Source: an uncultured Chloroflexota bacterium (GTDB lineage Bacteria; Chloroflexota; Anaerolineae; Aggregatilineales; Phototrophicaceae). Taken from it: DNA of 14,904 bases. The DNA lies in the NCBI GenBank assembly GCA_903904765.1, contig CAIVEA010000141.1, forward strand, positions 1 through 14,904, given 5' to 3'. Positions 1-12,244 of the stretch are shown one piece after another. The translations under genes were made by a program, and so were the position numbers. A model generated the notes under the pieces. That model saw only the letters and a program-made list of their open reading frames with translations. It was not told where the DNA came from and did no database searches. Numbering within the stretch: the stretch's first letter is position 1; each line of letters begins with the position of its first letter.

Positions 1-2109
1 GGCATTGACAGCCCGATTCCGAAGGCCATCCGCGAGAGCGAGATGCTCAAGCTGAATCTGTTCATGACGGATGCCGACAAGACAGCGGTACTCGATCAGT
101 TCACGCTGGTCACGAGCGACTCGGCGGATTACAACGAACTGGTCAAGACTTATCCGGTGCTGGCAACCGAGTCGATTTATGTGCTGAAAACCACCGACGC
201 GGCCACGCTGGAAACGATCAAGATGCCGATGGCGAAAGCCTTCCTCGCGGTCACAGGCATCGAACAGGCGCTGGCTGACCCCGAAAAAGCTGCTGCGATG
301 AGTGCCGCCAGTGGGAGCAGTTTTGATCTGTCCAAGCTGCCGGCTGGCACGAACGTGTTCGCCATGCTGGGGCTGCTGCCCGCTGCCACGCGGGAAAAGA
401 TGCTGGAAGCAGTCAATACGCGCTTCGCGTCGCTGGGCGAAACGATGGTCACGCAGGCAGCCATGAGCGCCGTCAAGACCGAGTACGCTGCGCTGGGTAT
501 GGATACCACCAGTATGCAGAACCAGTACATCATCAGCACCGGATTGGTCATGCTGGTGCTGTCGCTGCTCTCCGGCGCAAGCACGGTGACGGTGGGTTTC
601 TTGTCGGCACGGGCGGCAGCGGGCATGGCACGCAACCTGCGCCGCGACATCTTCACGAAGGTCGAAAACTTCTCCAATGCAGAGTTCGAGAAGTTCTCCG
701 TTTCGTCGCTCATCACCCGTTCTACCAACGATGTGACTCAGCTTCAGATGCTGGTGATGATTATGATCCGCATGATTTTCTACGCACCGATCATGGCGGT
801 GGGCGGCATCATCAAGGCCATCAGTACCGACGCTTCGATGTGGTGGACGATTGCCATTGCCGTCATCGCGCTGCTCAGCCTGATTTTCAGCGTGTTCACA
901 CTGGCGCTGCCCAAGTTCCGTATCATGCAGAAGCTGGTTGATCGGTTGAACCTCGTCACCCGCGAGAATCTTTCTGGCATGATGGTCATCCGTGCGTTCA
1001 ATACGCAGTCTTTCGAGGAGAAGCGGTTCGATCAGGCCAATCAGGATTTAACCCGCGTCAACCTGTTCGTCAGCCGCGTGATGGTGGTCATGATGCCGGC
1101 CATGATGCTAATTATGAACGGCGTTTCGCTGCTCATCATCTGGGTAGGGGCGCATCAGGTGGCGGAAGCCAATATGCAGGTGGGCAACATGATGGCCTTC
1201 ATGCAGTACGCCATGCAAATCGTGATGTCCTTCCTCATGCTGTCGTTCATGTTCATCATCCTACCGCGTGCTTCGGTGTCAGCAGATCGTATCGCCGATG
1301 TGCTGGAGGTAGAACCGAGCATCCTCGACCCGGAAAAGCCCAAGAAGTTCGCGGAGCCGTTCAACGCCAAGATCGAGTTCAAGCAGGTGTCGTTCCGTTA
1401 CCCCGGCGCGGAAGAAGATGTGCTGCACGAGTTGAACTTCACGGCGCTGCCCGGTCAGACGACGGCTTTTATCGGTTCGACGGGTTCGGGCAAATCCACG
1501 CTCATCAACCTGATCCCGCGCTTCTTCGATGTGACCGAAGGTTCGATCCTGATTGACGGGGTGGATATCCGCGAAGTATCGCAGCACGACCTGCGTGAAC
1601 GCATCGGCTATGTGCCGCAGAAGGGCAACCTGTTCTCTGGCACGATTGACAGCAACCTGCGCTATGCCGACGATGACGCTTCGGACGACATGCTGCAAAA
1701 GGCGACGGAAGTGGCACAGGCTGCCGATTTCCTGCGCGATATGCCGGACGGCCTGTTCTCGCCCGTTTCGCAGGGCGGCACGAACGTCTCTGGCGGGCAG
1801 CGGCAGCGGCTCTCGATTGCCCGCGCACTGGTCAAGAACCCGCCTATCTACATTTTCGATGACAGTTTCTCGGCGCTGGACTTCAAAACGGATGTGGCGT
1901 TGCGCCGCGCCCTCAAGGAATACACTGCCGATAGCACGCTGCTCATCGTGGCTCAGCGTATCGCCACCATTCTCACTGCCGATCATATCGTGGTGCTGGA
2001 CGAAGGGAAGATCGTGGGGCAAGGCACGCACAGCGAATTGATGATTAACTGCGAAACCTACCGCGAAATCGCGTTGTCGCAGCTCAGCATGGAGGAACTT
2101 GCATCATGA
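1..2109 (+). CDS. Heterodimeric ABC exporter, degenerate-site half (5' partial)
   Basis: Membrane-spanning half-transporter with a C-terminal ATPase domain, probably exporting drugs, lipids or peptides; the substrate cannot be read from sequence. The frame is open from base 1, so the ATG at 43 is internal and the true start, with the first membrane helix, lies upstream. Counting from base 1, residues 1-175 are a soluble stretch that in this family sits outside the membrane between helices 1 and 2. Helices follow from about residue 176 (the family stretch ending RRDIFTKVENFS is visible). The ATPase domain has Walker A GSTGSGKST (492-500), signature VSGGQ (from 596) and Walker B IFDD (Asp620-Asp621). 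Asp621 stands where the catalytic Glu normally is, and the H-loop His is Gln652 (VAQR). Both substitutions are typical of the non-hydrolysing half of heterodimeric exporters such as TM287/288. It overlaps the next gene by 4 bp. Confidence 0.93.
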   Translation, partial: GIDSPIPKAIRESEMLKLNLFMTDADKTAVLDQFTLVTSDSADYNELVKTYPVLATESIYVLKTTDAATLETIKMPMAKAFLAVTGIEQALADPEKAAAMSAASGSSFDLSKLPAGTNVFAMLGLLPAATREKMLEAVNTRFASLGETMVTQAAMSAVKTEYAALGMDTTSMQNQYIISTGLVMLVLSLLSGASTVTVGFLSARAAAGMARNLRRDIFTKVENFSNAEFEKFSVSSLITRSTNDVTQLQMLVMIMIRMIFYAPIMAVGGIIKAISTDASMWWTIAIAVIALLSLIFSVFTLALPKFRIMQKLVDRLNLVTRENLSGMMVIRAFNTQSFEEKRFDQANQDLTRVNLFVSRVMVVMMPAMMLIMNGVSLLIIWVGAHQVAEANMQVGNMMAFMQYAMQIVMSFLMLSFMFIILPRASVSADRIADVLEVEPSILDPEKPKKFAEPFNAKIEFKQVSFRYPGAEEDVLHELNFTALPGQTTAFIGSTGSGKSTLINLIPRFFDVTEGSILIDGVDIREVSQHDLRERIGYVPQKGNLFSGTIDSNLRYADDDASDDMLQKATEVAQAADFLRDMPDGLFSPVSQGGTNVSGGQRQRLSIARALVKNPPIYIFDDSFSALDFKTDVALRRALKEYTADSTLLIVAQRIATILTADHIVVLDEGKIVGQGTHSELMINCETYREIALSQLSMEELAS

Positions 2110-4211: not shown

Positions 4212-5294
4212 ATGCTCAACCCGCGCCAGTGGACGCGAGACATCCTCGAAAAGCACAGTCTAGATATGCGGCAGTTCGTCGGCTTTCGCTCCAGCACACT
4301 CCCCAACGGGATGCGGATTGTGGAAGCCTACAACGCCGCTGGTTTGAACTTCACCATTCTGCCGGATCGCGGTCTGGACATCTGGACGGCCAGCTACAAA
4401 GGTCTGCCGCTGACGTGGGTCAGCCCCGGTTCGCCGCACCCGCCCGATGATGGCATGATGTGGCTGCGGCAGTTCAACGGCGGTTTGCTGGTGACATGCG
4501 GTCTGCTGCATGTCGGCCCGCCAGAGAAGGATGATGTGACTGGCGAGTCCCGCGATTTGCACGGGAACGCCACCCGCTTACGGGCGGGCGATGTTTCGGT
4601 GGATGGTGGTTGGGCAGCTGATGGACGCTATAAGGTCACGCTCAAGGGCGCAGTCCACGAGTCGCGGTTGTTCGCGGAGCAAATCCGTCTTGAGCGCACC
4701 TACACGCTTGATCTGGCTTCACCCGTCATTCAGATTGACGATACCATCACCAATATTGGTGATGAACCCGTCCCGTTCATGATTCTGTACCATTTCAACG
4801 TGGGCTTCCCGCTGATTCAGCATGGGACGCGCTTGATGTCCAGCGGGCAGGTGGTCGCCCGCAACGAACAGGCGATGCCGGGGCTGCCCAACTGGCCGCT
4901 GTATAACGCACCGTCTGCCAGTTATCTGGAGCAGGTTTTTTTCCATCATGTTCATGCCGATACAGCGGGTTATTCGCTGGCGGCGCTGAACGTGCATGGC
5001 GAGTTTGGCCTTGCGGTGCGCTGGCGCACGACGGAACTGCCATACCTGACCCAGTGGAAGAATACCCGTCAGGGGATTGTGGTGTGCGGCGTGGAACCGG
5101 GCAACTGCTTGCCAGAAGGCTTGAATTCCGCCCGCAAGAATGGGCGCTTGGTCATGCTCCAACCGGGGGAAACGCAGTCGTTCGCAACCGCGCTGGAAGT
5201 GCTGGATGGCGCGACGGCGGTACAGAATGCTCGCGAGGAGATCGAAACGCTGGCGGCGGAGGGCCGTCCGGTGGTGGGCTGCAAACTGCCGTAA
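4212..5294 (+). CDS. DUF4432 family aldose-1-epimerase-like protein
   Basis: A 360-residue cytoplasmic protein of the DUF4432 family, related in fold to galactose mutarotase/aldose 1-epimerase. It has no signal peptide or membrane helix. Family-type motifs are LPDRGLDI (Asp52, Arg53), GGLLVTCGL followed by HVGPP (His100), DLHGNA (His117), YHFNVGFPL (His194) and CGVEPGNC (Glu295). By analogy with mutarotases, His194 and Glu295 are reasonable acid/base candidates, but this is inference. Enzymes of this fold interconvert anomers of sugars; the actual sugar is unknown. The start is firm: an in-frame TAA at 4191 excludes a longer protein and AAGGGGG lies seven bases upstream of the ATG. It appears monocistronic, between a repeat and a terminator, with a possible RBS-occluding inverted repeat in its leader. 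Confidence 0.88.
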   Translation: MLNPRQWTRDILEKHSLDMRQFVGFRSSTLPNGMRIVEAYNAAGLNFTILPDRGLDIWTASYKGLPLTWVSPGSPHPPDDGMMWLRQFNGGLLVTCGLLHVGPPEKDDVTGESRDLHGNATRLRAGDVSVDGGWAADGRYKVTLKGAVHESRLFAEQIRLERTYTLDLASPVIQIDDTITNIGDEPVPFMILYHFNVGFPLIQHGTRLMSSGQVVARNEQAMPGLPNWPLYNAPSASYLEQVFFHHVHADTAGYSLAALNVHGEFGLAVRWRTTELPYLTQWKNTRQGIVVCGVEPGNCLPEGLNSARKNGRLVMLQPGETQSFATALEVLDGATAVQNAREEIETLAAEGRPVVGCKLP

Positions 5295-5321
5295 TCGCTG
5301 CTGAACAAACGCATGAGTCGG

Positions 5322-5350
5322 AAGGGCATGAGCGCATCATGCCCTTTTTT
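5322..5350 (+). terminator. Rho-independent terminator after the DUF4432 gene
   Basis: A perfect stem GGGCATGA (5324-5331) / TCATGCCC (5337-5344) with loop GCGCA is followed at once by six T (5345-5350). The flanking AA and TT extend the pairing by two. It lies 27 bases after the stop codon and separates this gene from the cyclase operon. Confidence 0.92.
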
Positions 5351-5405
5351 ATTCCTTATTTACGTAACAGACGTTCCCTTCACAAGCGCAGGATTGGAAC
5401 GGGTG

Positions 5406-5411
5406 TATAAT
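5406..5411 (+). promoter_or_regulatory. Putative -10 element for the cyclase operon
   Basis: A perfect TATAAT lies 31 bases before the preferred ATG at 5443, in the gap after the terminator, where a promoter is required. I could not find a convincing -35 box at 16-18 bases, so only the -10 is called. Confidence 0.45.
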
Positions 5412-5442
5412 TTTCACATTCAGCATACGGCGGGGTGTGAAC

Positions 5443-7176
5443 ATGCTTGATGGAAATACACATCCGATTAACGATGTGCAGCGTCTCAAAGTGTATATTG
5501 CCGAGGTGATCGCCGCGCTCAGCAGCCAAGCCGAAATTCTCAAGATGCGCGGCATGAATTTGCCGCCGGGCGCGATGCAGAACCTCGAAAGCATTGATCG
5601 TGATCTGACCGCGCTTCAGAAGCACATGGGTGGTGAGGATACCGAACTGGCGCAACTGCGGGCGCTGGCGGCGACTTCAGCGATGATTAACTCGTCCCTT
5701 GATCTGGACGATGTGTTGACGCAAGCCATTGATGAAGTGATTTCGCTGACGGGCGCGGAACGTGGCTATATCGTGCTTCGCAATCATGCCAGCGGCGAAC
5801 TGGATTTCCGCGTCTCCCGTGATCTGGAAACCGGGCAGTCCAGCGGGTTTCAGGGCAGCCAGACCATTCTGAACGAGGTCATTACTACCGGGCAGCCCAT
5901 TTTGAGCGATAACGCTTATGGCGACACCCGCTTGCAGCAGGTTTCGACCATCGCGCAGATGGTGCTGCGCTCGGTGCTATGCGTGCCGCTGCGCTACAAA
6001 GACCAGATTACCGGCGCGGTATATGTGGATAATCGCCTGCGCTCCGGCATGTTCTCGGATCGGGAAAAAGGGGTGCTGTCGGCTTTTGCGAACCAGATGG
6101 CCGTTGCCATCGAAAATGCGCGGCTGTTCATGCAGGCGCAGGCCTACCTGAATGAAATCACCGAACTGCAAGAGGTGATGTCGAACGTGTTCTCGTCCAT
6201 CGGTAGCGGGGTCATTACCACTACGCAGGACGATGCTATCCGCACCTTCAACGCGGCAGCGGGCGACATTCTGGGCATTGAGCCGGAACACGCGCTAGGG
6301 CAGTTGTTAGAGTCGGTGATTCCGGCGTTGAAAGATGACATTCTCACGCGCATTGAGCAGGGTGAAAGCGCCGCGTTCGAGGCGGAATATGAGCATCACA
6401 ACCGGGGACGGTTGCTCCTCGGCTTGAAATTATCTCCCCTGAAAGACCCGGAAGGGCAGCTTCAGGGTGTGGCGCTGGTGGCAGACGACCTGACTGAACA
6501 GCGTGAACGCGAAGACCGCCTGAACATCCTGCGCCGCTACCTGCCGCCCGCGATGGTAGATAATATCGAGGACATCGCCAACCTCGCCTTAGGCGGCGAA
6601 CGGCGCGAGATGACCTGCATGTTCGTGGATGTGCGTCCCTTCACGACCTTCCCGCCCGAACTGCGCCCGAAGCAGGTCATGGACTTGCTGAACGAATATC
6701 TGGCGGTGGCGACGGACTGTATAAGCGATTTTAACGGCGTGCTGGATAAGTACATGGGTACGGAAGTCATGGCGCTGTTCAATACGCAGATTAACCCGCA
6801 ACCGGATCATGCGTGGCAGGCGGTGGCGGCGGCGCTCGAAATGCGCGAACGCTTTGTCGAATTGTATGCACGACAGGGGCTTGACCCGAATAATCACCTG
6901 TACCGCGTGGGCATTCACAGCGGCGTGGCGACTACAGGCAACGTGGGGAGTCTCAGCCGCCGCGATTTCACCGCACTGGGTGATACCATCAATTTGTCTC
7001 ACCGTCTGCTGGAGAACGCCAAAGGTGGACAGATCATCATCAGCGAGGCGAATGTGGGCTATGTCCAGCAGCAACTGGATGGGTTGCCCGGTCACATTCA
7101 CCTGAAAGATCATGATCCCATCAAGGCCAAAGGCCGCCAGCAGTTCACCACTGTTTATGAGGTGTTCCGCACATGA
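5443..7176 (+). CDS. GAF-PAS class III nucleotide cyclase, C2-like subunit
   Basis: Predicted cytoplasmic sensor cyclase of 577 residues. ATG 5443 is preferred over GTG 5437 because GGGGTG (5432-5437) is then at a workable distance. Order: N-terminal helix with an RGMNLPPG motif and coiled coil (about 1-80), GAF (about 87-230), PAS (about 245-353), class III adenylate/guanylate cyclase domain (about 384-575). Catalytic residues compared with the family: first metal Asp396 is present (FVDVR) but the following Gly is Pro; the second metal Asp is Thr440 (KYMGT for KYMGD). Adenine-binding Lys436 and Thr510, and transition-state Asn517 and Arg521 (ALGDTINLSHR), are all present. Lacking the second metal ligand, this chain alone should be inactive or weak; it resembles the C2 half of mammalian adenylyl cyclase. 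The next gene supplies the missing residues and overlaps by 4 bp. The Lys/Thr pair suggests ATP as substrate. Confidence 0.93.
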   Translation: MLDGNTHPINDVQRLKVYIAEVIAALSSQAEILKMRGMNLPPGAMQNLESIDRDLTALQKHMGGEDTELAQLRALAATSAMINSSLDLDDVLTQAIDEVISLTGAERGYIVLRNHASGELDFRVSRDLETGQSSGFQGSQTILNEVITTGQPILSDNAYGDTRLQQVSTIAQMVLRSVLCVPLRYKDQITGAVYVDNRLRSGMFSDREKGVLSAFANQMAVAIENARLFMQAQAYLNEITELQEVMSNVFSSIGSGVITTTQDDAIRTFNAAAGDILGIEPEHALGQLLESVIPALKDDILTRIEQGESAAFEAEYEHHNRGRLLLGLKLSPLKDPEGQLQGVALVADDLTEQREREDRLNILRRYLPPAMVDNIEDIANLALGGERREMTCMFVDVRPFTTFPPELRPKQVMDLLNEYLAVATDCISDFNGVLDKYMGTEVMALFNTQINPQPDHAWQAVAAALEMRERFVELYARQGLDPNNHLYRVGIHSGVATTGNVGSLSRRDFTALGDTINLSHRLLENAKGGQIIISEANVGYVQQQLDGLPGHIHLKDHDPIKAKGRQQFTTVYEVFRT

Positions 7177-8969
7177 ACCCCGGATTTCATGACGATACCG
7201 CAAAAATTCGGACAAGCCAGAGTTCCGCGCAGGAGCAGTTGCGCCATCTCATCCAGCGCACGGGCGACTTGATGGAATTGTTGCGTGCCCAGCGAGACGT
7301 GCTGCGCCAGCGTGGGATGAACCTGCCTTCCGGTTCGCTGGACAGCCTGAAAAGCTTGAAGGCGCATCTGGAGAAGCTCAACAATAATCTGGCGGCCACC
7401 CTGACCGAACTGAAACAGTTGCGGGCGCTGGCGGATACGACCTCGCTCATCAACTCGTCGCTTGAGCCAGCCGAAGTGCTGAATCAGGTTATGGATACCG
7501 TCATCCGTATCACCGGTGCGGAGCGTGGCTATATCGCGCTCAAAAACCGCGAAACGGACGACATGGAATATCCGGTGCGGCGCGGTATAGATCAGGAGCA
7601 GATGGCCAAGGGCGAGATTGTGGTCAGCAAGACCATCGTGAATCAGGTAGCCAGCACGGGCGAGGCCGTCCTGACCGACAACGCCAGCAAGGATGACCGC
7701 TATCAGGGGCATCAGAGCATCATCGGCTTCCAACTACGTAGCATTCTAGCTGTGCCGCTGACGGTGCGCGAGAAGGTGATCGGTGTGGTGTACTGCGATA
7801 ACCGCGTGATGGCGGCGCTGTTCAAACCGCATGACCTGAACCTGCTCAAAGCGTTCGCCAACCAAGCGGCTGTTGCCATCGAAAATGCGCGGTTGTTCGA
7901 GGAGCTACGGCTGCAAGTGGCGCAGATGACCGAAGCCCGCGACCTGATGACCAGCATTTTCGCCTCTATTGCGGGCGGTGTCGTCACGCTGGATAACCAG
8001 AACATGATTATGGACTGTAATCCGGCTGCCGAACTCATTTTGAACTGCTCACGGGATGCGCTCATCGGGCAACCGCTGGAATTGGCGGCGGCGGCGCTGC
8101 ACGGTGTTTGTGAGGTGGCACTGGCGAAGGTGCGCGAATTGGGCGTGCGTGAACGGTTGGATGCCGAACCAAACATCCCCGGACGCGGCCAACGCTACTG
8201 GAATGTGATACTCAGCCCCTTGCGCGATGCACATCAGATGGCGCAGGGCGTGGCAATGGTGCTGGACGACCTGACCGAAACCCGCCGCCAAACGCAGCAG
8301 CTACGTATCGCGGGCGGATATAGTAAGTTCGACCCCGGTTTGCTGCGGCGCGTGGATGAAATTGGCGGTGAGGAGCGCCAGATCAGCGTGCTGTATTCGG
8401 ACGTGCGCGGATTCACCAACTTCAGCGAGAAGTTGGAACCCGAAGTGCTGATGGAGATCATTAACCGTTACCTCAGCCTCGCCAGCGACGCGATCAACCT
8501 GTACGACGGTGTGGTGGATAAGTACATGGGTGACGCGGTGACGGGGTTGTTCAATACCCCGTTGAACCCGCAGGAAGATCATGCGCTGCGGGCTGTGCGT
8601 GCTGCCATGAGTATGCGCTCCGACCTGCTGGCGCTGCACGAAATCATGCCGGAGGAACACCGTTTGTTCTACGGCATCGGTGTTCACAGCGGGCTGGCGG
8701 TGTTGGGCAACATTGGCGGCAGCAGTCGTAAGGAGTTCGGCGCACTGGGCGACGCGATGGATTTGGGCAAGCTGTTGCAAGAGAATGCCGAGGGCGGCGA
8801 AGTACTCATCAGTCAAGCGACGTATGATCTGGTGGAGCATGTGTTCGAGTGCGAGGCGATAGAGCCGCGTAAAACGAAGGCTGATCGCCCCGATTTCACA
8901 GTGATGTACCGGGTGCTGCGCTTGAAAAAGCGTACCGCACCTTTAACCCTCGAAGAACTTGGATTTTAG
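7173..8969 (+). CDS. GAF-PAS class III nucleotide cyclase, C1-like subunit
   Basis: A 598-residue paralogue of the preceding protein with the same layout: helix with RGMNLPSG and coiled coil (about 1-90), GAF (about 97-240), PAS (about 256-366), cyclase domain (about 398-585). Both metal-binding aspartates are intact, Asp410 (YSDVRGFT) and Asp454 (KYMGD), and Lys450 is present. In the other half of the active site the adenine-binding Thr is Gly523, the transition-state Asn is Asp530 and the Arg is Leu534; the alignment to the upstream paralogue in this segment is gapless. This mirrors mammalian C1 domains, which give metals but not the Asn/Arg pair. Paired with the upstream chain, one complete composite site forms. 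Start ATG overlaps the previous stop (ATGA), with GAGGTG at 7159-7164 eight bases before it, consistent with coupled, near-equal synthesis. Confidence 0.93.
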   Translation: MNPGFHDDTAKIRTSQSSAQEQLRHLIQRTGDLMELLRAQRDVLRQRGMNLPSGSLDSLKSLKAHLEKLNNNLAATLTELKQLRALADTTSLINSSLEPAEVLNQVMDTVIRITGAERGYIALKNRETDDMEYPVRRGIDQEQMAKGEIVVSKTIVNQVASTGEAVLTDNASKDDRYQGHQSIIGFQLRSILAVPLTVREKVIGVVYCDNRVMAALFKPHDLNLLKAFANQAAVAIENARLFEELRLQVAQMTEARDLMTSIFASIAGGVVTLDNQNMIMDCNPAAELILNCSRDALIGQPLELAAAALHGVCEVALAKVRELGVRERLDAEPNIPGRGQRYWNVILSPLRDAHQMAQGVAMVLDDLTETRRQTQQLRIAGGYSKFDPGLLRRVDEIGGEERQISVLYSDVRGFTNFSEKLEPEVLMEIINRYLSLASDAINLYDGVVDKYMGDAVTGLFNTPLNPQEDHALRAVRAAMSMRSDLLALHEIMPEEHRLFYGIGVHSGLAVLGNIGGSSRKEFGALGDAMDLGKLLQENAEGGEVLISQATYDLVEHVFECEAIEPRKTKADRPDFTVMYRVLRLKKRTAPLTLEELGF

Positions 8970-8980
8970 GCGAGTGCTTC

Positions 8981-9406
8981 ATGAACGATGAGCGTTATGA
9001 AGCCATCCGCAAACGGATGACCGAACGTTACCGGAGTCGCGCCGAGTTTTATGGGCATTTGATCGCATTTGTCATCATCAACCTATTTGCATGGGCGGTC
9101 ATTCCCAGTACGCTGTCTGAAGGTTTGCGGGCGACTATTCTGACGATTCTGGCGCTTATTAGTGTGGGCTGGTTCGTGGGTGTGGCGATTCACGCCATCA
9201 ACTTCATTCTGGTAGAGATGCGCGAACGTGCGATTGACCGTGAGATCGAGCGCGAACGGGGCTGGTTGGCGGGTGAAGACATGGATGAGAAACCCAAGCG
9301 CCACCGCCGGTTGGAACGCATGACGGACGATGAGGGCGAACTGTTGGACGAGGCGGCATGGGCAGCGCAGGATGAACGGGGGCAACGTTCATCTTCCGGG
9401 CGCTGA
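8981..9406 (+). CDS. Small 2TM-domain membrane protein
   Basis: A 141-residue protein with two hydrophobic helices (about residues 24-43 and 51-75), preceded by a basic amphipathic segment (RKRMTERYRSRAEFYGHL) and followed by a long charged cytoplasmic tail rich in Glu, Arg and Asp. The helix-hairpin arrangement, with FYGHL before helix 1, VIINLFAW within it and GWFVGVAIHA in helix 2, matches the 2TM domain family, found in small bacterial membrane proteins and at the N-terminus of some LytTR regulators and kinases. It begins 11 bases after the second cyclase stop, so it is very likely in the same transcript, though its ribosome-binding site is weak. A role as membrane anchor or input/output partner of the cyclase pair is inference from position only. 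Confidence 0.82.
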   Translation: MNDERYEAIRKRMTERYRSRAEFYGHLIAFVIINLFAWAVIPSTLSEGLRATILTILALISVGWFVGVAIHAINFILVEMRERAIDREIERERGWLAGEDMDEKPKRHRRLERMTDDEGELLDEAAWAAQDERGQRSSSGR

Positions 9407-9427
9407 TGATGGGTGGGCAGTCGTAGA

Positions 9428-9455
9428 TTGGCTGATCTGCAAATTCGCTTACAAT
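9428..9455 (+). promoter_or_regulatory. Putative sigma-70-type promoter of the GAF gene
   Basis: TTGGCT (9428-9433) and TACAAT (9450-9455) are separated by 16 bases, 22 bases after the 2TM stop codon and 57 bases before the ATG at 9513. The boxes match 4/6 and 5/6 of the housekeeping consensus. It would allow the GAF gene to be transcribed independently of the cyclase operon, although no terminator is seen between them. Confidence 0.4.
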
Positions 9456-9512
9456 AGGACGGTAAGATTAAGCCAGATGGTGTAAGTTTACCCAACGAGA
9501 GGATTCTGCGTG

Positions 9513-10124
9513 ATGGTCACTAACCCGATGGCTGTTCTACGGCGCGAGAACACGCGCTTGCAAGCAGAAAATGAACGCCTGACCGAAGAACTACGAGATT
9601 TGCGCGAATTTGTGCAAATTCTGAATACCCTTATGTTGTCTGCCAAGCAGTTTAGCAGTGATGACGAGTTGCTCCCGCTGCTAGAGCAGATTTTCCTGAA
9701 GGCGCTGAATCTGCTGAACGCACCGGATGGGTCGTTGTTGCTCCTCGATGACGAGAAGAACGAATTGGAATTTGTACTGGTGCAGGGGACGCTGGCGGCT
9801 AACCTGCACGGCTACCGCATTCCGGCAGGTGAGGGTGTCGCTGGATGGGTCATGCAGAATGCTGAGCCAACGCTGGTGCGTGATGTGCGCCGTGACCCAC
9901 GTTTCTCGCACATTATTGATGACCAGTTCACTTTCCGTACGCAGTCTATTGCGGCTGCCCCTCTGATTGGTGATCGTAAGGTGTACGGCTTGATCGAGGC
10001 GCTGAATCAGCCGGGGGATGAGCCGTTTTCCGAGGACGATCTGGCGCTGATGGGGTTGCTGTGCCGCTTTGCGGGCGAGGCGCTGGCAGATATCGAGCGC
10101 ATCAAGCCAACCTCTGCATTGTAG
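9513..10124 (+). CDS. Coiled-coil GAF-domain protein
   Basis: A 203-residue soluble protein. The start ATG 9513 is preferred over the adjacent GTG 9510 because GAGAGGA (9497-9503) then lies nine bases upstream. Residues about 7-36 are a strongly charged heptad-type coiled coil (RRENTRLQAENERLTEELRD), likely a dimerisation helix. Residues about 52-195 form a GAF domain with recognisable features: GSLLLLD, the IPAGEGVAGWV turn, DVRRDPRF and the AAPLIGDRKVYGLIEALN strand pair. No output domain is attached, so it probably works as a ligand- or redox-sensing partner of another protein. No Cys residues suited to haem or iron-sulfur ligation stand out. It sits between the cyclase operon and the polysaccharide operon, and which of them it serves, if either, is unknown. 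Confidence 0.87.
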   Translation: MVTNPMAVLRRENTRLQAENERLTEELRDLREFVQILNTLMLSAKQFSSDDELLPLLEQIFLKALNLLNAPDGSLLLLDDEKNELEFVLVQGTLAANLHGYRIPAGEGVAGWVMQNAEPTLVRDVRRDPRFSHIIDDQFTFRTQSIAAAPLIGDRKVYGLIEALNQPGDEPFSEDDLALMGLLCRFAGEALADIERIKPTSAL

Positions 10125-10228: not shown

Positions 10229-12244
10229 GTGAAATCTGCATCCGCACCGTTTCAAATCGCTTTGAACCTTGTCCTGAAATGGTGGTGGCTTATCCTCCTT
10301 TCGGTGGCACTAGGCGCGGGCGTGGGCGCATTTGTCCGCGCACGTCAACCGGATGTGTATTATGCGCGTGCCACAATCTGGTTCGGGCAAAATATCGGTA
10401 CTGCACTGCAAGACCCTTCTGGATATTCCGCCATTCAGGATTTAATGTCCATCTATGCTGGCCTGACCACCCGCGACCGCGTATTGCAGCCGGTTGTGGA
10501 GCGTATGAACCTCAACATCAGCGCCGCTGATTTGGGTAAGCGTATTTCGGCAATCCCGGATCGCAACCTGCCGCTGCTGGAAATCTGGATGGCGGATACA
10601 GATGCCATCCGGGCGGCAGACATTGTGAACGCTGTGGCGCAGGAAGTCATCACCCAGAGTCCGACGGAGAAAGTGTCGCAGGAAACCGAATTTAAGCGCC
10701 AGCAGCTCCGCAAACTGGAACAGCAAATCACCGAGCTTCAGGACAGGTATAACCAGCTTCTTTCGGCGGGTGCGACCCTGACTTCAGCGGTGGAAATCGC
10801 CCAGAATCTCGAAGATCAGACCACGACTCAAAAGACGCTGCAAGATGTTCAAAAGTTGTACGCGGACATGAGTTCGACTCTGAATGACCCCAGTGGCGCG
10901 TTGCAAATTTACGATGTGGCGACGGCGCAGAATGCTATGCGTGTGACCGGATCATTTGGCAGCGTGTTGCTCTCCGGCGTGGCAGGGCTGGTCATCTCGT
11001 TAGCGACTATTATGCTGATCGCATTTTTCGATGACCGCCTTCAGTGGAACGAAAGTATGGACAGCATCGCCGGTGTGAAGGTGCTGGGACCGTTAGGCAT
11101 CGTTCCGCGTGCCAAATTGCCGTTGTATCTGATTACGATGCCGGAAGCCATCGAAAGCGAAATGATTCGCCAGCTTCGCGCCAAGATTGTGTTGGCAGCG
11201 GGTGGCAAACCGCCGCGTGTGATGACCATGAGCAGTTACGATTCGGGGGATGGCAAGACCGTCACAGCCTCCAACTTGGCGTTGGCATGGGCGCAATCGG
11301 GTCTACGCACGCTGCTGGTGGATGGCGACATCCGCAAAGGCAATTTGCATGAATTGTTCCGCCTGCCAAACGTGATGGGCTTGTCGGACATTCTGGCAGG
11401 GCGAGATGATGTTGGGGTATTGCTGTCGCGGGCGGTGCTGGAGAGTGGCTACGAAAATCTCGCCATTTTGCCCTGTGGACGCGCTACAGGTGATCCGGCA
11501 TCGCTGTTAAGTGGAGCACGCTTGTTGTCGCTGATTGATGCGGTAAAGCGACAGTTTGATATTGTGGTATTCGACGCAGTTCCGGCCATCGGCGGCCCGG
11601 ATACTGCGTTCCTCGCAGAACATAGCGACGGCGTGTTGATCGTTGTGCATTCCCAGCGCACCACTTACCGGGGGCTACAGCGTGTGCTGCAAATGTTTCA
11701 GCAGTCGCACAAAGCCAATATCTATGGTGTGGCGTTCAACCGCCTGCCACTGCAAGTCACCAGCACTTACAACCGTCCATACTACCGCCGTCAACTGGCG
11801 ATCAGTCCCGATCACCTCAGCCGCGAAATCGCCGCAGCCGGTACGCGCCGCTTTAAGCTGAACGCCAATGTCAACCTCGCGCCAGACGGCGTGCGTTTGT
11901 ACAGTGTGGTGGCCGCAGCGGTGCAACTGGGTGTGACCAGTGACACGATTGAGGATTGGATCAAGACCGGCTACCTGAAGATCGAAACGCACAGCCGTCG
12001 CCGCTGGATTCGGGAAACCGAGATCATGGCGCTGTTGGAACGCATCCCACGTCAATCGCTTTCCAAACTGGGTAGCGGGTCATCCAACCAGCCGCCATCG
12101 TCCCCGACTACGGCAGAATTGCCACCTGCTCCCAAGCCGACGAGTGGTAAGATTCCTGATTTGCTGCGTGGTCAGCGCGATAAGTTGCTGGCAGCGGCAC
12201 GGGGCAGCGAAAGTGCTGCGCCGCCGGATGAGGACAGAGAATAG
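10229..12244 (+). CDS. Wzz/BY-kinase fusion with C-terminal helix-turn-helix
   Basis: Inner-membrane polysaccharide co-polymerase fused to a bacterial tyrosine kinase, 671 residues, controlling chain length and export of a surface polysaccharide. GTG start with GAGG at 10217-10220, eight bases upstream. A Wzz-type N-terminus with helix 1 (about 18-37), an external coiled-coil region (about 150-180) and helix 2 (about 246-268) lead into a P-loop kinase domain (about 300-500). Walker A is SSYDSGDGKT (335-344, Lys343), Walker A' LLVDGDIR (Asp365, Asp367), Walker B VVFD (Asp449). Instead of the usual Tyr-rich tail there are only Tyr514, Tyr518 and Tyr519, then residues about 556-607 read as an excisionase/MerR-like helix-turn-helix (LGVTSDTIEDWIKTGYL, then RRRWIRE), and a Pro/Ser-rich tail. 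The kinase assignment is secure; DNA binding is inferred. The next gene begins at the base after its stop. Confidence 0.9.
   Translation: MKSASAPFQIALNLVLKWWWLILLSVALGAGVGAFVRARQPDVYYARATIWFGQNIGTALQDPSGYSAIQDLMSIYAGLTTRDRVLQPVVERMNLNISAADLGKRISAIPDRNLPLLEIWMADTDAIRAADIVNAVAQEVITQSPTEKVSQETEFKRQQLRKLEQQITELQDRYNQLLSAGATLTSAVEIAQNLEDQTTTQKTLQDVQKLYADMSSTLNDPSGALQIYDVATAQNAMRVTGSFGSVLLSGVAGLVISLATIMLIAFFDDRLQWNESMDSIAGVKVLGPLGIVPRAKLPLYLITMPEAIESEMIRQLRAKIVLAAGGKPPRVMTMSSYDSGDGKTVTASNLALAWAQSGLRTLLVDGDIRKGNLHELFRLPNVMGLSDILAGRDDVGVLLSRAVLESGYENLAILPCGRATGDPASLLSGARLLSLIDAVKRQFDIVVFDAVPAIGGPDTAFLAEHSDGVLIVVHSQRTTYRGLQRVLQMFQQSHKANIYGVAFNRLPLQVTSTYNRPYYRRQLAISPDHLSREIAAAGTRRFKLNANVNLAPDGVRLYSVVAAAVQLGVTSDTIEDWIKTGYLKIETHSRRRWIRETEIMALLERIPRQSLSKLGSGSSNQPPSSPTTAELPPAPKPTSGKIPDLLRGQRDKLLAAARGSESAAPPDEDRE

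Follow-up and report, generated by a model that had tools for sequence, protein, structure and literature searches.

The window analysed here is a 14,904-nucleotide stretch of contig CAIVEA010000141.1 from an uncultured Chloroflexota bacterium of the class Anaerolineae. It carries two adjacent genes, A and B, whose products each join a GAF and a PAS domain to a class III nucleotide cyclase catalytic domain. We propose that the two proteins are subunits of an obligate heterodimeric adenylate cyclase and that they very probably work only as a pair, because each retains only some of what is needed to make cyclic AMP (cAMP). The proposal is based on the residues found at the active site, on their conservation in 36 such gene pairs and on the phylogeny of the family.

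Active-site residues of A and B

Six catalytic columns (in order, the metal-1 Asp, the purine-selecting Lys, the metal-2 Asp, the purine-selecting Thr, the Asn and the Arg) were set by alignment to the sequence of the CyaC structure 1wc1, which reads DKDTNR. At these columns the A chain of the window is D-K-T-T-N-R and the B chain is D-K-D-G-D-L. The A chain can be numbered as 577 residues from the ATG at 5443 or as 579 residues from the GTG at 5437 (+2). Every residue named in a preliminary description of this DNA is present: Lys436, Thr440 (at metal site 2), the VRPFT loop, Thr510, Asn517 and Arg521 of A in the shorter scheme (438, 442, 512, 519 and 523 in the longer for the five single residues), and Asp410, Asp454, Gly523, Asp530 and Leu534 of B. 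Its statement that the chains have lost opposite halves of the active site holds for the absence of the metal-2 Asp from A and of the Arg from B, but needs refining for the remainder, as A retains the metal-1 Asp396 and B retains Lys450; in the window genome each half is only partly lost.

Neither chain contains both metal Asp together with the Asn and the Arg, the set that a homodimer would need. The two reciprocal sets yield exactly one complete composite site, the pattern of the C1/C2 or soluble guanylate cyclase (sGC) type of heterodimer. The fused arrangement of the mammalian transmembrane cyclases, with two catalytic domains and two membrane anchors in one chain, is not found; A and B are separate open reading frames (ORFs) with one catalytic domain each. 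Both score above the PF00211 cut-off of 21.9 bits (Table 1), which places them among the class III nucleotide cyclases, and no NCBIfam equivalog above cut-off was found for either. There is no membrane family among their Pfam matches, no dedicated transmembrane predictor having been applied. The two chains are paralogues, 40% identical across nearly their full length. Pfam recovers GAF and PAS domains on both, as had been described, and the 4-bp overlap between the genes was confirmed.

Conservation across gene pairs

We searched 396 genomes belonging to the same class as G002 (an Anaerolineae metagenome-assembled genome) with A, scoring three candidates per genome, and 150 gave a match at E <= 1e-55. 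Conditional on a best match of E <= 1.4e-142, which selects 34 genomes, all 34 contain exactly two matches, adjacent, on the same strand and in the order A then B. These 34, the locus L005 and the window make up the 36 pairs used throughout; in one of them (L064) B ends at a contig edge before the Arg, hence 35 are readable at the later columns. L145 is also cut by a contig end. The relative L001/L009, which shares the flanks of the window, has its pair divided over two contigs and lies outside the 36. A contig search with B as the single query, which may reach less far than one with an alignment, returned five pair relatives and three distant matches.

The metal-2 Asp is absent from A in every pair (0/36), and the purine Lys, the Asn and the Arg are each present in 36/36; the purine-Thr position is occupied by Thr in 35 and by Ser in one. 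The metal-1 Asp is found in 21 A chains, with Glu (13), Thr (1) or Ser (1) in the others. The B chains have both metal Asp in 36/36 and the Arg in none of the 35 readable. These two losses, of the metal-2 Asp in A and of the Arg in B, are conserved in orthologous pairs, and no chain has regained all six residues, either among the 72 chains of the pairs (one B being read only to the metal-2 Asp) or among 240 database homologues (the best 120 of 4947 for A and the best 120 of 2504 for B). In these 120 A homologues the metal-2 position holds Thr, Asn, His, Ser or Gln and never Asp, the Lys, Thr/Ser, Asn and Arg are all found in 120/120, and the metal-1 Asp is found in 88. In the 120 B homologues both metal Asp and the Lys are invariant, the Arg is found in none and the Asn in two, and the purine-Thr position has Thr/Ser in 40. 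Because the core pattern, A without the metal-2 Asp and B without the Arg, is present in all 36 pairs and in all 120 + 120 listed homologues, it is not chance.

The close coupling of the genes is common to most pairs. A candidate start of B, read off the sequence, overlaps the stop of A by 1-8 bp in 29/36 (by 4 bp in 21 of these), and the remaining seven have intergenic gaps of 5-76 bp.

Complete-site homologues outside pairs

As a control, 69 homologues (29 + 40) were taken from genomes that gave no adjacent pair; 50 were read from the 116 non-pair matching genomes of the 396-genome sample and the other 19 come from a phylum sample. All 69 have both metal Asp, the Asn and Thr/Ser at the purine-Thr position, and the Arg is found in 68/68 readable. 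Since every residue-read homologue outside a pair keeps the metal Asp and the Asn (and the Arg where readable), incomplete residue sets accompany the pair within the sequences read. Twenty-three non-pair genomes gave several matches and were re-searched; their extra matches are never adjacent and lie in longer ORFs of 631-1040 residues.

The purine Lys is found in 55/69 of these homologues and is otherwise Ala (10), Met (3) or Gly (1). All 14 exceptions (in the range L120-L135) are among 20 loci of the phylum-wide sample, and in them both metal Asp, the Thr, the Asn and the Arg remain. A change of substrate selection in these 14 proteins is possible.

Relaxation of the two surfaces

The Gly of the GFT phosphate loop is found in 0/36 A chains, 35/36 B chains and, outside pairs, 29/29 and a further 39/40. 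The Phe and the Thr of this loop are retained in 9/36 and 6/36 A chains, and each in 36/36 B chains. We calculated mean column entropies in windows picked around the already known residues. Over the metal-1/phosphate loop (residues 396-406) the values are 1.43 bits for A, 0.56 for B and 0.63 for the 29 non-pair chains; over the Thr/Asn/Arg helix (residues 508-526) they are 0.64, 1.10 and 0.62 bits. When the B value is subtracted from the A value, the helix window 515-523 gives the lowest difference of 175 equal-length windows, and the difference for the loop window 398-403 is the eighth highest of 178. As the phosphate loop goes with the metals and the helix with the transition-state residues, each chain is relaxed mainly in the half that its partner retains.

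Phylogeny and origin

The main tree (45 hand-picked proteins, IQ-TREE, LG+C20+F+G4, rooted on phylum-distant homologues) separates A (100/99) from B (100/98) and joins them as sisters (100/99). The complete-site protein L087 is placed next to A+B (99/96), and the whole group branches from within successive complete-site homologues, with weak support at one deeper fork (82/35). A+B is also recovered (99), with L087 adjacent (94), in a quick rooted tree of 63 likewise hand-picked proteins, in which the outgroup did not fall on one side of a branch, one row being misplaced. The first tree (LG+G4, quick, unrooted, with a long-branch warning) gave three one-sided groups with sister relations that were not resolvable. 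Active-site columns were included in all trees. We note that L087 (from genome G293), which reads DKDTNR and is the nearest sister of A+B, is a good stand-in for the pre-duplication state.

The preliminary description suggested an independent origin of the pair. An origin within the bacterial family is backed by the rooted tree, which was built without eukaryotic cyclases: because A+B is nested inside Chloroflexota proteins, we take it to be independent of C1/C2. The simplest history would be one tandem duplication of a complete-site gene followed by reciprocal loss. The ancestor would have been a complete-site, presumably homodimeric GAF-PAS-cyclase in Chloroflexota. Before the divergence of the sampled pairs, A would have lost the metal-2 Asp and the loop Gly, and B the Arg; certain lineages would have decayed further afterwards. 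We deduce this order from how the residues are distributed and not from an ancestral reconstruction.

Structure models

Single-chain AlphaFold2 models have a mean predicted local distance difference test (pLDDT) score of 78.0 for A and 79.5 for B. In the catalytic domain of A the ten-residue means are 78-96 from residue 391, except for 43 at 501-510, and in B they are 68-94 over residues 401-570. The models served for fold matching only; whole-chain template modelling scores (TM-scores) are low and whole-chain superpositions were not used. Foldseek matches the catalytic regions of both to CyaC, CyaB and Cya2 with target-normalised TM-scores of 0.74-0.89; among solved bacterial catalytic domains these three are the closest. 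By sequence, Cya2 (2w01) is the second Protein Data Bank (PDB) match of A and the best match of B. Full-length sGC chains are also among the Foldseek matches of both models. The order of the sGC chains in these lists (chain B before chain A for protein A, reversed for protein B) would agree with the prediction if chain A is alpha and chain B is beta, but was set aside as too weak.

Gene features and neighbourhood

The features of the two genes are collected in Table 1. A terminator-like hairpin lies upstream of A; over 5200..9600 one such hairpin is found, against a mean of 3.7 in shuffled sequences. A sigma-70 scan gave no promoter-like site upstream of A.

Table 1. Features of the A and B genes, in window coordinates
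Feature	Coordinates	Strand	Remarks
Terminator-like hairpin between upstream DUF4432 gene and A	5320..5348	+	Consensus match only
Gene A, GAF-PAS-cyclase, predicted C2-like chain	5437..7176	+	GTG start, 579 residues; 577 residues from ATG 5443
A GAF domain, residues 88-226	5698..6114	+	Pfam GAF_2, 63.2 bits
A PAS domain, residues about 248-357	6178..6507	+	Pfam PAS_4/PAS
A class III cyclase catalytic domain, residues 391-573	6607..7155	+	Pfam PF00211, 60.1 bits; CyaC/CyaB/Cya2 fold matches
A metal-1/phosphate loop, altered	6628..6645	+	DVRPFT; canonical D-x-x-G-F-T
A purine Lys present, Thr at second metal Asp	6748..6762	+	KYMGT
A purine-Thr, transition-state Asn and Arg, all intact	6970..7005	+	TALGDTINLSHR
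Overlap of A stop with B start	7173..7176	+	4 bp, ATGA
Gene B, GAF-PAS-cyclase, predicted C1-like chain	7173..8969	+	598 residues
B GAF domain, residues 99-236	7467..7880	+	Pfam
B PAS domain, residues 265-372	7965..8288	+	Pfam
B class III cyclase catalytic domain, residues 402-569	8376..8879	+	Pfam PF00211, 52.8 bits; fold matches
B metal-1/phosphate loop, intact	8400..8417	+	DVRGFT
B second metal Asp present	8520..8534	+	KYMGD
B purine/Asn/Arg segment, decayed	8739..8774	+	GALGDAMDLGKL; Thr to Gly, Asn to Asp, Arg to Leu

Flanking genes were compared with those of the window in L001-L005 and L009. The close relative L001/L009, with chains 92-93% identical to those of the window, has five window neighbours in common; none of the window's other genes adjoins the pair in L002, L003, L004 or L005. 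Downstream of the pair the window encodes a protein with two transmembrane segments and a lone GAF protein (8981..10124); among the loci compared, these two adjoin the pair in L001 only and are absent beside it in L002-L005. Further away, 43..2109 encodes an ATP-binding cassette (ABC) half-exporter whose membrane domain matches its Pfam profile only from profile position 33, from residue 156 on, leaving a long N-terminal stretch without family match. Upstream of an O-antigen ligase-like gene, 10229..12244 encodes a ParA/AAA_31-type protein with a weak C-terminal HTH_17 match (residues 557-605; 21.7 bits, below the cut-off of 27).

Discussion

Class III cyclases form their active site at a dimer interface, with metals bound by C1 and with substrate and transition-state residues supplied by C2 (PMC4174876). 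In our model B, the C1-like chain, would contribute the two aspartates that bind metal and the GFT phosphate loop; A, the C2-like chain, would contribute the adenine-selecting Lys and Thr, the ribose-orienting Asn and the transition-state-stabilising Arg. A head-to-tail A-B dimer would have one working site, with metals from B and Lys, Thr, Asn and Arg from A, and one dead site. In an A-A homodimer the loop Gly would be missing and the metal site incomplete, and in a B-B homodimer the Arg, and usually the Asn, would be missing, so both are predicted to be inactive. With GAF and PAS domains on each chain, two sensor inputs would converge on one active site. The base is selected in this class by a Lys with Thr or Asp for ATP, and by Glu/Cys for GTP. 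As A has the Lys together with Thr/Ser, one of the partners (Thr, Ser or Asp) looked for in an adenylate cyclase, in 36/36 pairs, ATP is the predicted substrate. Proteins with the cyclic nucleotide-binding domain PF00027, possible receivers for a cAMP signal, are encoded in 12/12 pair genomes examined, but in 10/14 control genomes too.

Several observations weigh against so clean a division. Part of the predicted dead site is still conserved, in that B keeps the purine Lys in 27/36 pairs (Gln in nine) and Thr/Ser at the purine-Thr position in 16/35 readable; the Asn remains in four of the 35, and in two of the 120 B homologues. On the other side, the metal-1 Asp persists in the 21 A chains mentioned above. 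Around metal 2 (residues 439-445) the entropies of A and B hardly differ (0.66 and 0.57 bits; 0.35 in non-pair chains), and the relaxed segments are only near the mean entropy of their own domains (A 1.44, B 1.14). Lastly, the model of A has low confidence at about 501-511, which adjoins the Thr/Asn/Arg helix.

We have considered whether A and B could both be inactive pseudo-cyclases that serve as a GAF/PAS signalling scaffold, their reciprocal losses being incidental decay. Canonical catalytic residues are indeed missing from each chain. However, the decay is complementary and not random, with the Lys, Thr/Ser, Asn and Arg of A and the metal Asp and the GFT Phe and Thr of B retained in 36/36 pairs despite mean within-clade identities of 47% (A) and 49% (B), and a scaffold does not need exactly one full catalytic set per pair; we regard this explanation as very improbable. 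We give as little weight to the idea that B alone is an active, atypical homodimer and A merely its regulatory partner. The metals and phosphate loop of B are found in 36/36 (loop Gly in 35) and its Lys in 27/36, and mycobacterial proteins with a replaced Asn have been described (PMC4886424). In that description of 20 mycobacterial proteins, however, those with a replaced Asn still conserve the Arg, whereas B has lost the Arg in 35/35 readable pairs and the Asn in 31/35; the idea also leaves unexplained why A should keep its Lys, Thr/Ser, Asn and Arg in 36/36.

It is also unlikely, in our judgement, that a heterodimer with a composite site makes a product that is not, or not only, cAMP, such as another cyclic nucleotide. 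The substrate is so far predicted only, Cya2 (2w01) is entitled a guanylyl cyclase in its PDB entry, and the purine Lys varies in complete-site relatives (14/69). The A chain, however, has the Lys and Thr/Ser purine pair in 36/36, like the adenylyl cyclase CyaC.

The heterodimeric adenylate cyclase that we propose has close parallels in eukaryotes, where class III heterodimers are well known. In the mammalian transmembrane adenylate cyclases one half (C1) has the metal Asp pair and the other (C2) the substrate and transition-state residues, giving one live and one pseudo-active site (PMC4174876). Unlike A and B, which are separate chains from overlapping bacterial genes and carry GAF and PAS domains, the mammalian halves are fused in a membrane protein, with forskolin bound in the dead site. 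Soluble guanylate cyclase consists of two separately encoded homologous subunits, alpha and beta, with PAS domains, as in A and B, and with a coiled coil and a catalytic domain; its catalytic-domain homodimers are inactive and the alpha/beta mixture is active (PMC3591389). It differs in being an animal enzyme that makes cGMP, whereas A and B are bacterial, have a GAF sensor and are predicted to make cAMP. The sensor domain of sGC senses nitric oxide. The NeoR/RGC rhodopsin guanylyl cyclases of chytrid fungi are likewise described as obligate heterodimers of separately encoded chains (PMC8815786).

Among bacterial enzymes, CyaC, CyaB, Cya2 and Rv1625c have the same catalytic fold and residue positions but differ from A and B in having all residues in one chain and two equal sites (PMC4174876). 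The spacing agrees as well: the metal Asp of Rv1625c are at 256 and 300 (44 apart) and its Asn372 and Arg376 are four apart (PMC4174876), as are the corresponding positions of A (398/442 and 519/523 in 579-residue numbering). The losses in A and B match those of two Rv1625c mutants: D300A is without a metal Asp and R376A without the Arg; each is inactive by itself, and the two are active together (PMC4821796, citing Guo et al. 2001). These are laboratory point mutants of one protein, whereas A and B are two natural, long-diverged genes.

That bacterial class III cyclases are mostly homodimers, as stated in the preliminary description, accords with how they are presented in the parts of PMC4174876, PMC4821796, PMC4886424 and PMC9552081 used here; in PMC9552081, a 2022 review, the fused dimeric form is given as unknown in bacteria. 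A survey of Actinobacteria (PMC2447327) contains the word 'heterodimer' three times, in a passage that was not checked. Among the open-access literature matches listed, judged by titles and the beginnings of abstracts, none described a split-site class III heterodimer from bacteria. A guanylyl cyclase of Rhodospirillum centenum is a possible case, which was not among the matches listed.

We consider it likely that bacteria of the Anaerolineae class possess an unfused, two-subunit adenylate cyclase of C1/C2 design, which would have arisen within a complete-site family of homodimer type through one tandem duplication followed by reciprocal losses, and in which two different GAF-PAS sensors would gate one composite site. 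In this family a duplicated enzyme would have divided its labour without being fused, and both the complete-site relatives and the 36 diverged pairs are available for comparison. They allow tests of when a symmetric enzyme turns into an obligate heterodimer and of the order of the changes. Some losses are fixed (across the 36 pairs, the metal-2 Asp and loop Gly of A; in 35/35 readable, the Arg of B), and others are variable (the metal-1 Asp of A, and the Asn, Thr and Lys of B). A and B may also serve as a natural pair in which two inputs control the synthesis of a cyclic nucleotide. If our model is correct, they would mirror in bacteria a duplication step that has been proposed for the eukaryotic membrane cyclases, and in this case the complete-site relatives are still living.

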